36,146 nucleotides of DNA. It comes from Leptospiraceae bacterium (GTDB lineage Bacteria > Spirochaetota > Leptospiria > Leptospirales > Leptonemataceae). Location: NCBI GenBank assembly GCA_020441005.1, contig JAGRNA010000034.1:1-36146 (forward strand). The letters run 5' to 3'. The notes beneath the pieces were generated by a model. The model was given only the letters and a program-made list of their open reading frames with translations. It did not search any database and was not told the DNA's origin. Of the stretch, positions 2,602 to 10,743 are shown in pieces. The first letter of the stretch is position 1. The number at the start of each line of letters is the position of its first letter. Both the position numbers and the translations under genes were made by a program.

Positions 2602-3909
2602 ATGCAAGCTTTGCTCGGAATCATTGTATTTTGTCTGATCGCCTGGGCCGTCAGTGAAAACCGGCGCCGCATAGACTGGCGCGTATTGCTGGTCGGTGTC
2701 ATCCTGCAATTCCTGCTCGCTCTGGTGTTACTGAAAGTGGATCAGGTACGCCAGGCCTTTACTTCGCTGAATATCATTGTCACATCCCTTGACTCCGCGA
2801 CCAAAGCCGGCACCGGTTTTATTTTCGGGTACATCGGCGGCGGCGAGGCGCCCTTTGAAGTCAAGAACCCGGCCAGGCTATTCTCCCTCGCTTTTCAGGC
2901 ACTACCGCTGGTGCTGGTCATGAGCGCACTGACATCACTCCTTTTTTATTGGAAAATACTGCCGGTCATCATCAAATGGATCTCGCGTCTTTTTTCAAAA
3001 ACCCTGGGTATCGGCGGCGCGGCAGCCCTGGGCAGCGCCGCAAATATCTTTGTGGGCATGGTCGAAGCGCCGCTCTTTATCCGGCCCTACATCAGCAAAC
3101 TGAATCGTAGTGAACTCTTTATTATCATGACAACCGGAATGGCAACAATCGCCGGCACGATGATGGTTCTGTATGCCTGGATTCTGACGCCCGTTCTGGG
3201 TGATGCTGCCCTTGGCCACCTATTGGTGGCATCTATCATCAGCGCTCCGGCCGCGATTGTTATGGCCCGCTTGATGGTACCCCAGGACAAGAGCATGCCG
3301 GTTACTGCCGGTGAACTCTCCGATCCCCATCCGGCGGGTAATTCCATGGACGCCATCGCCGAAGGCACAATGGAAGGCCTCAAACTCTGGTTGAATATTA
3401 TCGCCATGATTATCGTACTGGTCGCGCTAGTAGAGCTGGTCAATATGATGCTGGGCGGTCTGGCCGCAATGATCTACGACAATCCAGAACCAGGTACGTG
3501 GACCCTCCAGGGAATCCTGGGCTGGTTTTTTCAATACCTGGCCTGGTTAATGGGCATTCCGGCAGCCGAGATGTCCAAAGCCGGTGAACTGCTCGGGATC
3601 AAGGTTGTGCTCAATGAATTTTTGGCTTACGATGCCATGGCCGCGTACGTCAGCGAAACCAATCAGGCCCTGCAAGCCGGCACTACTCTGCCCGCCGGGC
3701 ACATTATTCTCTCGGAACGCACCCGGATCATTTTAAGCTATGCCCTGTGCGGATTTGCGAATCTAGGCAGCCTGGGCATTATGATCGGCGGCCTGGGCGG
3801 CATGTCCCCCGAACGCCGCAGCGAGATAGCCGGCCTCGGCTTCAAATCAATTCTGGCCGGAATGCTGGCCACTATGATGACCGGAGCGGTGGTCAGTTTT
3901 TTTTATTAA
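2602..3909 (+). CDS. nupC: NupC-family concentrative nucleoside transporter
   Basis: An inner-membrane symporter (CNT family) importing nucleosides with H+ or Na+. The 435 residues are mostly hydrophobic, with the expected order of N-terminal helices, gate domain and C-terminal core. The two transport-core motifs are present: VEAPLFIRPY (about residue 154, equivalent to the EAPL motif that contacts nucleoside) and NEFLAY (about residue 338). The frame opens earlier with a TTG at 2575, but the family N-terminus (short helix, then SENRRRIDWR) fits ATG 2602; neither has a good ribosome-binding site. The acyltransferase gene starts two bases after its stop. A nucleoside role fits the adenosine kinase elsewhere in the window, though the two are 12 kb apart. 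Confidence 0.9.
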   Translation: MQALLGIIVFCLIAWAVSENRRRIDWRVLLVGVILQFLLALVLLKVDQVRQAFTSLNIIVTSLDSATKAGTGFIFGYIGGGEAPFEVKNPARLFSLAFQALPLVLVMSALTSLLFYWKILPVIIKWISRLFSKTLGIGGAAALGSAANIFVGMVEAPLFIRPYISKLNRSELFIIMTTGMATIAGTMMVLYAWILTPVLGDAALGHLLVASIISAPAAIVMARLMVPQDKSMPVTAGELSDPHPAGNSMDAIAEGTMEGLKLWLNIIAMIIVLVALVELVNMMLGGLAAMIYDNPEPGTWTLQGILGWFFQYLAWLMGIPAAEMSKAGELLGIKVVLNEFLAYDAMAAYVSETNQALQAGTTLPAGHIILSERTRIILSYALCGFANLGSLGIMIGGLGGMSPERRSEIAGLGFKSILAGMLATMMTGAVVSFFY

Positions 3910-6924: not shown

Positions 6925-6976
6925 GTGGTACAGGCTGCATCAGACCAGTAGCTGGAGCGACGACGGCCTGTACCAC
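6925..6976. repeat. 11-bp inverted repeat, possible convergent terminator
   Basis: GTGGTACAGGC (6925-6935) is matched exactly by GCCTGTACCAC (6966-6976) around a 30-base loop that itself contains CCAG/CTGG. It starts 21 bases beyond the DUF6580 stop codon, where the riboswitch-controlled operon should end. No U-rich tail follows on either strand, so termination would need help; it could also be an RNA-stabilising 3' stem. Confidence 0.45.
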
Positions 6977-6997: not shown

Positions 6998-7597
6998 TCA
7001 AACTCGTTGAGCGACGGCATCCGGAACGGCCTGAAAAGCAGACCAGACTCGATAAGCGGCAAAACCAATGGCGCTATAAAGCACAGCTGAAGCCAGGCTA
7101 CTGCGAAAGAACGGAATCGCATTGATGTAGCACTGCATCAGCCCTTCAAAAGTGAGGGCGTACATACTACCCTCCAGCCAGACCATCGCATTGGTTGTAA
7201 CATAAAACAGGATTGCAGAGCCTGCAGATGCGCCCAGGACCGCACCGGCCAGGCGCGAATCCCGGCCGATCTGAATCTCACCGGAGACGGAGGGCAGCCA
7301 GCGGGCCGCAGCCAGACAAAGCAACAGGGTACCATAAACAGTAGCACGCATTGCCAGGCTATCGAAGCCCAGTATCAAATCGGACAACACCATAGCGCCG
7401 ACGAGAGCCGCTGCCGCGAAGTAGCCCGGACGCAGGGCATATCCGGCCAACAAGGCCACAGCCAGCACTGGCGTAAAATTGCTGCTATCGGCCATTACCC
7501 GGCCGCCGACCACCACAGTGACTATCAGAGCCAGAGCCAGTGCATATGATACAGTGAGTCCCCTGTTTTGCGGAATTAATTTTTTTAACGTATTCAT
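6998..7597 (-). CDS. DUF6580 membrane protein, putative transport component
   Basis: A 199-residue integral membrane protein with about five to six helices. It matches DUF6580 throughout: NFTPVLAVALLAGY (about 40-53), DLILGF, TNAMVWLEGSMYALT and GLMQCYINAIPFF. This family is usually described as putative transport proteins resembling the substrate-binding (S) subunit of ECF vitamin importers. It is the last gene of the operon downstream of the cobalamin riboswitch, directly after a DUF4430 protein, so cobalamin or a corrinoid is the likely substrate (inference). No ATPase or EcfT subunit lies in the window, so it would need partners encoded elsewhere or work alone. ATG 7597 follows an AGGAAG ribosome-binding site. 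Confidence 0.8.
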   Translation of the reverse strand: MNTLKKLIPQNRGLTVSYALALALIVTVVVGGRVMADSSNFTPVLAVALLAGYALRPGYFAAAALVGAMVLSDLILGFDSLAMRATVYGTLLLCLAAARWLPSVSGEIQIGRDSRLAGAVLGASAGSAILFYVTTNAMVWLEGSMYALTFEGLMQCYINAIPFFRSSLASAVLYSAIGFAAYRVWSAFQAVPDAVAQRV

Positions 7598-7637
7598 TTT
7601 TCCTTCCTGTTAATTTTATTAATATATTACATTGCCT

Positions 7638-8075
7638 TTATTCGTCGATAACAGTTCCGCATTGGCTGCGATCTGCGTAACTGAGGTAGCACCAGCGAAT
7701 CTGATCACCAGCGCTCAGCACCTGATCCGCCACACCCAAACTGGCCAGTTGACCGTTCAGGGCGTATTGCCAGGCGGGACCCTGGGCAGTATTCGCCAGA
7801 CCCGCCAGGCTGGTCACGATTACGCCATTGGCTGTATCTTGACTGACAAACCTGATTTGGTCGTTTTGCTGCATTGCCTGCATCGCAGCCAGCACAGTGG
7901 CGCCGGCAGCAATTGGAGTGCTAACACTCATAGCCAGCCCCTGCGTGGGAGCCTCTATTTTCATCTGAATCGTTCCCGCCTCGCTTGTACGTTGGGGCTT
8001 ACAAGCGAGAAGAACCAGTAGACCGCAAAGCCCGATCAGTACTGCGTAGCGAGTCCCGGGTTTTTTTTTCATCAT
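7638..8075 (-). CDS. DUF4430 (transcobalamin-like) lipoprotein
   Basis: A 145-residue predicted lipoprotein. A short basic N-terminus (MKKKPG), a hydrophobic stretch and the lipobox LLAC place the lipidated Cys near residue 25. The mature part fits DUF4430, the domain equivalent to the C-terminal beta domain of transcobalamin and intrinsic factor: a TPIAAGATVLAAMQAM helix, then AWQYALNGQ and a DQIRWCYL strand near the end, the positions of the family W-x-Y and W-x-Y patterns. Its place in a B12-riboswitch operon makes corrinoid binding likely. Several Met codons precede 8075; I choose this one because AGAGAG lies six bases upstream. It ends 40 bases before DUF6580. Confidence 0.75.
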   Translation of the reverse strand: MMKKKPGTRYAVLIGLCGLLVLLACKPQRTSEAGTIQMKIEAPTQGLAMSVSTPIAAGATVLAAMQAMQQNDQIRFVSQDTANGVIVTSLAGLANTAQGPAWQYALNGQLASLGVADQVLSAGDQIRWCYLSYADRSQCGTVIDE

Positions 8076-8143
8076 TTTCATCTCTCTGAAGGTCATACTA
8101 TAAGTCAAAGTCTGAATGGCAATCGAAAAGGCTTCACTGTGAT

Positions 8144-9061
8144 CTAACGAGTTGCCATGTATCTGGAAATTACACCGTCAATGTCGGCCCCGTCCGAAAT
8201 CGCATCATGCACAAAGGCACTGCCTGTATCCGGATTCACAAGTGCGCTCGCTGATCGAATCCGGATGTAGACAAAGCCGTTGGTCTGAATTGCGTTGCGC
8301 TCCACTGTGCTGCAGCCGTTGCCAAATTGATTGGTATCCACAAGATTCGACAAGTCAAAGCCGTCGCCGCCGGCCTTGTTCGGATCAAAGCTGTCTGCGG
8401 CGGTAAGAGGATTGGTGACCTGGTTGAGTAACACCGGGGTCAGTCCGGCGAACTTGCTCCAGTGAACCGGATTCGTACTATAACTCGTTTCCGGGGCGTT
8501 GGTATAATCCGGTCCAAAGCCGCAATAGGTCACATTATCACGGCTGACTTCCACTACCGCTGGATCCATAAATCGGCTGCTACTGCTGCTAATACTAAAG
8601 GGATTTTCAAATACCACAAAATCGATGCCGCTGCCATTCGTAACTTTTTGGCCTGCCCATTCGAGGACCAGACTGGCCCCGCTGCCGGTCGCATCCAGAG
8701 AAAACACATCTGTACCGCCGGTCGCACTACCACCGCCGCAAATACCATTTACCGCTTTGGTTTTGTCTTTATAGCCGCTACCGGTATGCGCCGGAGCGCT
8801 GGTGACGGTATCCGCCAGCGTAAGGCCTGCAGGCAGGCTTGTCCCGGCCGGACATGTCACAGTCGGGGCAGTCGCATTTAATCCATTCGACAGCAGCAAT
8901 GCCCCCAATGCTTCCATGTCATCATCGCCTGAATCGGTACCTGGCAAGCATTGATTGGCAGCGCAAAACAAGGCTAGCGCCAGTCCAACTCGCACGACTG
9001 AATTCCTGGCGCGCCCGAACGGAATGGCCAATGGTTTTTGATCTGTCCTGGATGACTTCAT
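8144..9061 (-). CDS. Lipoprotein with FVVFENPF cell-surface domain
   Basis: A 305-residue predicted surface lipoprotein. After a basic start and hydrophobic segment, the probable lipidated Cys is in ANQCLPG, followed by an acidic GDDDMEALGALLLSN tether closely resembling that of the upstream lipoprotein. The mature domain contains LEWAGQKV, then DFVVFENPF and a VEVSRDNVTYCGFGPD segment, the signature of a family annotated as cell surface proteins; relatives with DFVVFEN often sit beside corrinoid-uptake genes in Bacteroidetes (from memory). A late KAGGDGFDLSNL segment and four Cys suggest a folded extracellular domain. An AGGCAGG ribosome-binding site precedes ATG 9061, seven bases after the previous stop. 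A role in corrinoid capture is inferred from context. Confidence 0.75.
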   Translation of the reverse strand: MKSSRTDQKPLAIPFGRARNSVVRVGLALALFCAANQCLPGTDSGDDDMEALGALLLSNGLNATAPTVTCPAGTSLPAGLTLADTVTSAPAHTGSGYKDKTKAVNGICGGGSATGGTDVFSLDATGSGASLVLEWAGQKVTNGSGIDFVVFENPFSISSSSSRFMDPAVVEVSRDNVTYCGFGPDYTNAPETSYSTNPVHWSKFAGLTPVLLNQVTNPLTAADSFDPNKAGGDGFDLSNLVDTNQFGNGCSTVERNAIQTNGFVYIRIRSASALVNPDTGSAFVHDAISDGADIDGVISRYMATR

Positions 9062-9068
9062 TGCCTGC

Positions 9069-9638
9069 CTAGCGCCGGGTCATTTTGGACCAGGTGCCAG
9101 CTCCACAACCGTTCGCTTTGGTCGGATCATTGCGATCAAAGGTGTAAGCGGTTGTATCGGCATCCAGTTCCGCAAGGGAATTCTTGTTGAACGACTCATC
9201 ACACCGATAGATTGTATTGGCATCAAATATGGCAAAACGAGAGCGTTGATAGATGCTGTTTGTTTTTTCCGTGATTGTTGGCCAGGCTGCAAAATCGAGT
9301 TGCTTGCCGGTCACTTTGATGACAATGCCATTATTATCGTAACTCACTATCGACATGGTGTAGTCTGTTTTTGGAGTTCCCGAACCCAGCACCGTATGCT
9401 TTGTATAGGCGGTATTTGTGATTGTATAGGCCGCATTGCTATCGGCGGTATCCGTCCAGGTACCTGCCACCGAGAGATTGGACGCATTGCTAATCGCAGC
9501 CAGGAGTAGCAGCTCCAAATCTTCGTCGCCCGGATCATCCGGCGGCGTACACTGCGACAATAACAATCCCGACCCCAAAATACCGCTTAAAAAAAGTATC
9601 GGGATCAAAAGGCCTGCTCTATTTTTTTTAAATCTCAT
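9069..9638 (-). CDS. Small lipoprotein, first gene of B12-riboswitch operon
   Basis: A 189-residue predicted lipoprotein of no recognised family. The N-terminus MRFKKNRAG, a hydrophobic core and LLLSQC give a relaxed spirochaetal lipobox (Cys at about residue 30). An acidic tether PPDDPGDEDLELLLLA follows, then a beta-rich domain beginning VAGTWTD, reminiscent of small lipocalin/META-like surface proteins that start with a G-x-W motif; this resemblance is weak. Although the frame is open upstream to 9806, ATG 9638 has a clear GGGAGA site and begins a proper signal peptide; the upstream part overlaps the riboswitch. It is the first gene after the cobalamin riboswitch, so it is probably repressed by B12. 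Confidence 0.75.
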   Translation of the reverse strand: MRFKKNRAGLLIPILFLSGILGSGLLLSQCTPPDDPGDEDLELLLLAAISNASNLSVAGTWTDTADSNAAYTITNTAYTKHTVLGSGTPKTDYTMSIVSYDNNGIVIKVTGKQLDFAAWPTITEKTNSIYQRSRFAIFDANTIYRCDESFNKNSLAELDADTTAYTFDRNDPTKANGCGAGTWSKMTRR

Positions 9639-9725
9639 GTTGTTCTCCCGTGATTTTGCACAGGGCCAGAGCAAAGACTGCCAACTGACGGAGACAAGAG
9701 TATAAGTCAAATGTGTGCAATTGCC

Positions 9726-9754
9726 GGCCCCTGGTTTGTACGCTCCCGGGGGCC
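9726..9754 (-). promoter_or_regulatory. GGCCCC/GGGGCC hairpin in riboswitch expression platform
   Basis: GGCCCC and GGGGCC at 9726-9731 and 9749-9754 form a strong stem in the leader between the cobalamin aptamer and the first lipoprotein gene. On the transcribed minus strand no U-run follows, and the ribosome-binding site is still about 80 bases away. The switch may therefore act by Rho-dependent termination or longer-range occlusion rather than a simple intrinsic terminator. Confidence 0.35.
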
Positions 9755-9789
9755 CTTCGCGCCAGACGGCTACGATGCGTGTGCGGTCA

Positions 9790-9931
9790 AACCACGAACC
9801 AGTCACACAGGGAAGATCTGACTTATGGCCGCTATTTGAATTAACGAGCCAAATACAGTTGCGGGACAGCGCGGGAATCTCACCCGTCTTCCTCCTGGGA
9901 TTGTGGGACTACAGTTGACAGGGCACTTTCC
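9790..9931 (-). ncRNA. Cobalamin (B12) riboswitch
   Basis: Read on the minus strand, this leader carries the cobalamin aptamer core in order: AGTGCCC (9921-9927), GGTGAGATTCCCGCGCTG (core from 9885 downwards), GCTGTCCCGCAACTGTA (9870-9854), a TATTTG/CAAATA stem (9833-9855), and CATAAGTCAGA (9827-9817) followed by TCTTCCCTGTG. These match conserved blocks of the Rfam cobalamin family (GGTGCC, GGTGAAAATCC, GCTGxCCCGCAACTGT, AAGCCAGGAGACCTGCC), with AAGTCAGA in place of AAGCCAGGAGA. It precedes the lipoprotein/DUF4430/DUF6580 genes. Aptamer ends are approximate. A TTGACA at 9938-9933, right after the upstream gene's stop, is a possible -35, but a -10 at correct spacing would truncate the aptamer, so the promoter may lie inside the prepilin peptidase gene. 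Confidence 0.85.
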
Positions 9932-9939
9932 TTGTCAAA

Positions 9940-10743
9940 TTAAAACCAGTCGGCAACAAAGGACAAGGGCAGGCACACCAGCCAGCCAATCGCGAGTCCG
10001 GTTCCCAGCGGTGCCGGGGCGCGATGATCACGGGCAACTAAATAAATGTACAAAATAGCAAAAGCCCCGCCAATCTGAATCATAAACAAAGCCCAGGGTA
10101 AACCCAAAGCAAAGCCCAGCACCCCGACCAGAATCACATCGCCAAAACCGAGCCCTTTTTTATAAAATACATGTAGCAAGTAGAACAGGGCCGCAAGCCC
10201 GGGACCCGCCCATAGATGCCACTGTAAACGGTGCCAGTCAGAGCCGCTTTCGATCACGACCCCCAGCAATCCCAGGCTGGCCAGGACCAGCGCGTTTTCA
10301 TGATCAAGGCGCAAAAAAACAGTATCAGTTGCCACGCTGATGTACAAATGTCCGGCAAAGCAGGTCCACACCAGAGCCAAAAGCCAGGAAGCGCCAAAGT
10401 GCAAGAGCAGGGGCAATAACAGAGCCGCATAGATTTCTCCCGCCAGAGTCCACCAGCCTATAGGGTGCTTGCAAGACCGACAGCGACCGCGCGCAGCCAG
10501 ATATCCAAGGAGGGGCCACAGGAAAAGGCCCCGAATTTCTGTCCCGCAATTCTGGCAATGGCTGGGTCGCCCCAAAATCGCGGCCCAACGGCGACTTACA
10601 AGCGGCCGCCAAAGCCAGCCCTTCAGTTTGCGGCCGGGGCCGTAGTAATAATATAAAATCCGGGAGGCCAGGGCGGTGTAAAAACTGCCCAAAATCGCCC
10701 CCAGAATACAGGCCAAACCAGTTTCCAGGTATTGCGGCAACAT
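9940..10743 (-). CDS. pilD: Prepilin peptidase (A24 family)
   Basis: An inner-membrane aspartic protease that cleaves and methylates type IV prepilins or type II secretion pseudopilins. The 267-residue length is normal for the two-domain form. The N-terminal cytoplasmic domain has the zinc-binding pairs CQNC (63, 66) and CRSC (88, 91). The two catalytic Asp are D140 (in ATDTVFLRLD) and D202 (in GFGD). The segment after D140 lacks the usual IP-N sequence, a mild divergence. About seven to eight membrane helices are visible. It starts 18 bases after the aminotransferase stop, so the two are probably co-transcribed although functionally unrelated. No pilus genes lie nearby. Confidence 0.9.
   Translation of the reverse strand: MLPQYLETGLACILGAILGSFYTALASRILYYYYGPGRKLKGWLWRPLVSRRWAAILGRPSHCQNCGTEIRGLFLWPLLGYLAARGRCRSCKHPIGWWTLAGEIYAALLLPLLLHFGASWLLALVWTCFAGHLYISVATDTVFLRLDHENALVLASLGLLGVVIESGSDWHRLQWHLWAGPGLAALFYLLHVFYKKGLGFGDVILVGVLGFALGLPWALFMIQIGGAFAILYIYLVARDHRAPAPLGTGLAIGWLVCLPLSFVADWF

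Follow-up and report, generated by a model that had tools for sequence, protein, structure and literature searches.

A cobalamin riboswitch ahead of three lipoprotein genes and a membrane-protein gene raises the question of what such an operon handles. The locus belongs to a Leptospiraceae bacterium (assembly GCA_020441005.1, a genome 89.9% complete), whose contig JAGRNA010000034.1 was analysed over positions 1-36,146 of the forward strand, hereafter the window (36,146 nt). As the initial annotation had proposed, the leader and its four genes probably serve the uptake of vitamin B12 (corrinoids), supplying the capture and inner-membrane components of the system. This reading draws on riboswitch linkage across phyla, a BtuH-like fold predicted for the LIC_13355-family lipoprotein, the resemblance of the DUF6580 membrane protein to CbrT and BtuM, an archaeal operon with energy-coupling factor (ECF) genes, and a six-gene operon at a related locus. 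The operon proteins would bind corrinoid, hand it over and transport it.

The riboswitch leader

Cobalamin aptamer blocks had been placed on the minus strand at 9931-9790, and both Rfam models of the class fall there. The adenosylcobalamin model RF01482 matches 9811-9895 with 45.5 bits (cut-off 50; E 1.9e-7 in a search of 9700-10000, 301 bases). RF00174, the model suggested initially, does find a site at 9794-9918 (E 7.1e-4 over the whole genome), though its 24.1 bits fall short of the 31.5-bit cut-off. A scan of the whole window at gathering scores gave 0 matches; the gathering score, which the leader misses for both models, is a curation threshold and not a biological trait, and leaders of 40 related loci pass it.

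Comparison of leaders reveals a conserved aptamer core with covarying helices. From 27 RF00174 sites, L030-L033 were left out as unlike the others; a pattern kept 19 of the remaining 23 cores (missing L041, L045, L047 and L052), and 18 were aligned, L049 being left out. Across these 18 cores, the window's included, standard pairs fill 95.8% of pair cells versus 40-53% with the partners slid, and double changes fill 42 cells versus 11.8 in shuffles. By its sequence, the window leader is confirmed as a genuine cobalamin-class riboswitch with a predicted ligand response, below the curated cut-offs though it scores. Folded alone, it is no more stable than shuffled sequences (z -0.25). At least 15 of 27 compared leaders carry TTGAC ahead of the aptamer. 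No full sigma-70 match was found at 9933-9938 of the window, and the sigma-70 and terminator scans ran at or below chance.

The four-gene operon

The genes lie on the minus strand in the order first annotated, with which coordinates and family scores agree, and are separated by gaps of 7, about 62 and 40 nt (Table 1). The surface lipoprotein originally recognised by its FVVFENPF motif belongs to the curated LIC_13355 family; this protein, the DUF4430 lipoprotein and the DUF6580 protein all score above their family cut-offs. The small lipoprotein gave no match in family profile scans, LIC13354_fam included, and the small lipoproteins of its relatives match LIC13354_fam weakly, all below its cut-off. 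Judged by eye, the lipobox cysteines of the three lipoproteins stand in ...LLLSQC, ...AANQC and ...VLLAC, the Q preceding the cysteine in the first two being unusual. The end points of the DUF4430 gene are approximate; the profile scan covered 7638-8063, and the start ATG at 8081 was picked by eye. Just past the DUF6580 stop lies the 11-bp inverted repeat GTGGTACAGGC, which the terminator scan did not call.

Table 1. Features of the riboswitch operon in the window
Feature	Position	Strand	Basis
TTGACA, possible -35 box	9933..9938	-	by eye; immediately beyond the upstream prepilin-peptidase gene
Cobalamin-class riboswitch leader	9794..9918, core 9806-9899	-	RF00174, RF01482, R1, covariation in 18 cores
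Small lipoprotein, 189 aa, LIC13354-like position	9069..9638	-	open reading frame (ORF); no family match
LIC_13355-family lipoprotein, 305 aa, predicted BtuH-like fold	8144..9061	-	NF033170, 279.1 bits (cut-off 120)
DUF4430 (transcobalamin beta-like) lipoprotein	7638..8081	-	PF14478, 45.0 bits (cut-off 23.8)
DUF6580 membrane protein, predicted solitary ECF S-component	6998..7597	-	PF20221, 112.9 bits (cut-off 27)
Perfect 11-bp inverted repeat behind DUF6580, possible end of the operon	6925..6976	-	2 matches (0.02 expected)

Linkage across Leptospirales and other phyla

In a sample of 30 Leptospirales genomes (G000-G029, the window's own included), LIC_13355 occurs in 26, DUF6580 in 24, DUF4430 in 11 and RF00174 matches in at least 20, the last a lower bound because most genomes were scored for part of their candidates (59 each). 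All 24 DUF6580 genomes fall within the 26 carrying LIC_13355, as do all 25 with the putative propeller lipoprotein described below (hypergeometric co-occurrence 5e-4 and 2e-4, respectively, uncorrected for shared descent). DUF4430 lies directly upstream of DUF6580 in every one of the 11 genomes that have it; LIC_13355 and DUF6580 are not adjoining in 10 of the 24.

A covariance model, R1, was built from the 18 aligned cores, the window site among them. It finds a same-strand upstream leader in 23 of 27 sources, namely the window and 26 Leptospirales LIC_13355 loci (22 of the 26). Ten of these 23 sites trained the model, and the 13 untrained ones score 49-82 bits. The four misses are G004, where LIC_13355 is third in a riboswitch-receptor-propeller operon; a locus on a cut contig; a weak second copy; and G027, with no R1 leader in the 1.5 kb searched (L097, seemingly the same place, has none in 6 kb either).

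For a wider view, the best 80 of at least 324 confirmed relatives of the LIC_13355 family in named genomes were taken as loci, 25 of them spirochaetal by record title (by gene order for L102 and L104) and 55 non-spirochaetal. No record among the 80 is titled Leptospira, and 4 Leptospira proteins are named among the 120 matches listed. A same-strand cobalamin-class riboswitch lies within 5 kb upstream at 57 of the 80 loci; 40 pass the Rfam cut-off and 45 are detected with R1 at E <=1e-3. The 57 comprise 23 of the 25 spirochaetal loci, which are not independent of R1 because some come from the same genomes as the sample above, and 34 of the 55 non-spirochaetal loci, 32 of them by Rfam cut-off. 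The latter records include Myxococcota/Deltaproteobacteria, Planctomycetota, CSSED10-310 and Sumerlaeota, among others. Nearly all listed Rfam cobalamin-clan matches (41/43) lie upstream on the strand of the family match. Among the 23 loci without a riboswitch, 8 matches start within ~1.5 kb of a contig end; archaeal loci also belong to this group.

Neighbours were counted as ORF clusters across the 80 loci; the single-linkage LIC_13355 cluster absorbed propeller proteins too, and its size is therefore not quoted. A small-lipoprotein cluster is present at 22 loci and is the first gene after the riboswitch at 19 of them, a TonB-dependent receptor at 15, DUF6580 at 10 and DUF4430 at 8. Two receptor-cluster members (L102, L138) were scanned against families, and L138 has BtuB structures as its top matches (E about 1e-9). 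At L179, a single riboswitch is followed by the small lipoprotein, LIC_13355, DUF4430, DUF6580, the receptor and the propeller protein in one six-gene operon.

Several loci have features of their own. Tandem cobalamin riboswitches precede one LIC_13355-like gene in a Planctomycetota record (L157:3109-3306 and 3504-3687). A thiamine pyrophosphate riboswitch (L102:1419-1526) and the cobalamin riboswitch of that locus lie on opposite strands, ~400 bases apart, and a permease-like gene (L138:9622-10677; TIGR00950, 88 bits, below cut-off) separates receptor and propeller. Loci L118 and L135 come from records titled Klebsiella pneumoniae metagenome-assembled genome, probably mislabelled bins.

A second riboswitch operon

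The operon was initially described as having no BtuB, BtuFCD or ECF ATPase. This is true of the operon itself, but a BtuB-like receptor is encoded elsewhere in the genome, which rules out an organism devoid of a BtuB-type receptor. The genome holds one further RF00174 site, scoring over the cut-off, and this second riboswitch precedes a TonB-dependent receptor and a putative propeller lipoprotein. The receptor (PF00593, 105.6 bits) has as its best Protein Data Bank (PDB) match 9gbc, another TonB-linked receptor, followed by BtuB; the TonB-B12 equivalog TIGR01779 is its best NCBI family but at 107 of the 599.7 bits, hence the term BtuB-like. The ~390-aa propeller lipoprotein directly after it gives weak propeller profile matches (best 1l0q, E 2.1e-8, alignment A8). 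Directly behind this pair lie DsbD-type genes, DsbD_N-like (22.5 bits, cut-off 25) and DsbD_TM/thioredoxin (L172:5860-7859, G000 C191), a possible redox connection with the handling of corrinoids.

DUF6580 and a proposed inner-membrane step

Against PDB sequences, the DUF6580 profile has one match at E <=0.01, the ECF-CbrT entry 6fnp (E 1.6e-6, first half only); a single-sequence search gave none, and DUF4430 gave no useful match. The predicted DUF6580 model appears to have an S-component fold: BtuM comes first in both fold rankings, and each of the top 20 rows is an ECF S-component judging from its title or chain, 4huq_S and CbiM of CbiMQO included. CbrT is absent from the fold matches listed, and S-components for many substrates fall within about 1 Z. 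Cys156 is kept in 11/11 sequences of alignment A3 and in fewer than 90% of the wider alignment A5. In one genome (G026 C94:4861-5243), DUF6580 is split in two by a stop codon.

Profile searches of the window's own genome gave no match for CbiC, FecCD/BtuC or EcfT/CbiQ, nor for ABC_membrane_2 of BacA type, a weak test with 2 of 14 control genomes positive. Half of the DUF6580 genomes (12/24) are without FecCD matches. Because the FecCD/BtuC, EcfT/CbiQ and BacA-type searches were empty, DUF6580, of which the genome has one copy, is the only inner-membrane candidate found among the transporters surveyed, which are not all transporters.

DUF6580 could be an ordinary S-component driven by an ATPase module, shared or divergent, that escaped the CbiQ profile. 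Such a module exists in an archaeal relative, where EcfT and a fused EcfA lie beside the S-component together with a LIC_13355-family gene (L156; L158 by cluster), and the ABC ATPase genes of the window's own genome were outside the survey. This is nonetheless rather unlikely, as EcfT/CbiQ was found in 0 of the 30 Leptospirales genomes while the same search was positive in 10 of 14 control genomes, and for this reason DUF6580 is not classed as part of a complete ECF transporter. CbrT is reported to require its ECF module (PMC5997447), whereas BtuM supports B12 uptake without one (PMC6072759), so that a solitary DUF6580 is plausible rather than proven. The BtuM study also describes E. coli as lacking an ECF module.

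The operon could also be regulated by B12 while DUF6580 imports a precursor or part of cobalamin, such as cobinamide, alpha-ribazole or a lower-ligand base. Import of this kind has been proposed for the S-component CblT. ECF-CbrT reportedly takes cobinamide as well (PMC5997447), and the narrow spread of the fold ranking fits many substrates. Precursor import is unlikely here, however: the only PDB match of the DUF6580 profile at E <=0.01 is a B12 transporter, BtuM leads both rankings, and the genome has MetH and no CbiC match.

The LIC_13355 family

The predicted structure of LIC_13355 has a BtuH-like fold, matching the B12-binding C-terminal domain of BtuH. Its best single-query E against PDB sequences is 0.92 and profile searches gave no BtuH match; the protein is described as BtuH-like in predicted fold and not classed as BtuH. 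A Pfam scan gave no match, DUF4465 included, and DUF4465/BtuJ structures are absent from the fold matches listed.

In L. interrogans, recombinant LIC_13355 is reported to bind laminin and plasminogen (PMC11891782), and LIC13354 and LIC13355 rise 3.8-fold and 3.7-fold in host-adapted cells with btuB unchanged (PMC3953431). These findings would suit a family of host- or matrix-binding adhesins for which cobalamin control is an environmental cue. That is highly improbable, since the family has cobalamin riboswitches in Myxococcota, Planctomycetota and others, stands next to BtuB-like receptors, and occurs beside ECF genes in an archaeon, where host adhesion is unlikely; the binding study, moreover, used insoluble protein that was refolded. 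Cobalamin, B12, riboswitch and operon have 0 occurrences in the main text of that study, as do the first three terms in a second LIC_13355 paper, and none of the open-licence papers searched mentions DUF6580 or Leptospira with BtuG. Published cobalamin riboswitches of Leptospira sit ahead of btuB and cob-type genes; a later study lists three in L. interrogans (PMC7567364). LIC1nc80 of that species was considered as a LIC13355 leader and dropped, its published position being a 3′ untranslated region.

The sub-threshold Rfam scores and unexceptional folding stability might suggest that the riboswitch is decayed or arose by chance and that the four genes have no connection to B12. This is ruled out, for practical purposes, by conservation of the leader, which occupies the same position in 23 of 27 sources, by covariation, and by cross-phylum linkage at the Rfam cut-off.

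A proposed uptake pathway

In the uptake system favoured here, cobalamin shortage would lead the leader to permit expression of the four genes. At the cell surface, corrinoid would be bound by the BtuH-like domain of LIC_13355 and transferred to the BtuB-like receptor and the putative BtuG-like propeller lipoprotein, both encoded behind the second riboswitch. In the periplasm it would be taken over by the DUF4430 lipoprotein, which looks like the beta half of transcobalamin, and delivered to DUF6580, a membrane protein of S-component type with similarity to CbrT and BtuM, for the inner-membrane step. Since the searches gave no EcfT, DUF6580 would act on its own in the manner of BtuM, probably with trapping inside the cell. 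The small lipoprotein would be the fourth member of a set likely acting together in B12 capture and inner-membrane passage.

A bolder version could fall either way. Here the BtuH-like surface lipoprotein and a gate of BtuB and propeller would be followed by DUF4430, a half-transcobalamin acting as periplasmic carrier, and by DUF6580 as a solitary channel of the CbrT/BtuM type, in a line whose inner-membrane step is ATPase-free, and the LIC_13355 domain would be a B12-capture module from spirochaetes to Myxococcota, Planctomycetota and archaea. If it is so widespread a module, the "adhesin" LIC_13355 of pathogens would be a vitamin-piracy protein. Two reports weigh against simply extending it to pathogenic Leptospira and make the bolder version less likely: the pathogens are predicted to synthesise their own B12 (PMC4758666), and the host-adapted rise of LIC13354 and LIC13355 occurs without btuB.

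With such a system, two widespread families that are so far uncharacterised, LIC_13355/NF033170 and DUF6580, would gain their first function, and BtuH-type surface capture would reach beyond Bacteroidetes. Gene order connects DUF4430 of bacteria and archaea with B12 uptake. The proposal also offers a testable alternative reading for a Leptospira surface protein so far studied as an adhesin, and points to another lineage where cobalamin may enter through a solitary S-component that has no ECF motor.

Comparison with known B12 systems

The DUF4430 domain is shared with vertebrate transcobalamins, where it is reported as C-terminal (PMC4350170); the window protein has this domain only, with no alpha domain found. 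The DUF4465/BtuJ jellyrolls are, like the proposed role of LIC_13355, B12-binding proteins of B12 loci, described from Spirochaetota too (PMC13398666), but LIC_13355 lacks their Pfam match. The pathogenic LIC_13355 (PMC11891782) belongs to the same curated family NF033170 and is numbered next to LIC13354, namesake of the family that the relatives' small lipoproteins weakly resemble; in contrast to the role proposed here, it is published as laminin- and plasminogen-binding.

DUF6580 resembles CbrT of ECF-CbrT (PDB 6FNP, PMC5997447), whose substrate is B12, in a profile match over the first half, and differs in that CbrT needs an ECF module, none being found here. Its likeness to BtuM, the solitary B12 S-component (PMC6072759), is a fold match only; BtuM has an essential Cys80 in loop L3, and DUF6580 genes, unlike that of BtuM, are linked to DUF4430.

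A close parallel is the BtuB-BtuG-BtuH system of Bacteroides (PMC8941943, PMC10404256), which likewise combines cobalamin riboswitches, a TonB-dependent receptor, a propeller lipoprotein (a putative one here) and a further surface lipoprotein, BtuH, whose B12-binding domain has the fold predicted for LIC_13355. LIC_13355 is, however, too short for the immunoglobulin-like domains of BtuH and has no detectable sequence match to it. The initial annotation regarded a multi-lipoprotein corrinoid relay with DUF6580 as the membrane step as new. Multi-lipoprotein capture as such is already reported from Bacteroides (PMC10404256), while the DUF6580 step is backed by its resemblance to CbrT and BtuM; where Bacteroides loci carry inner-membrane ABC (ATP-binding cassette) transporters, the present operon has DUF4430 and a solitary DUF6580.

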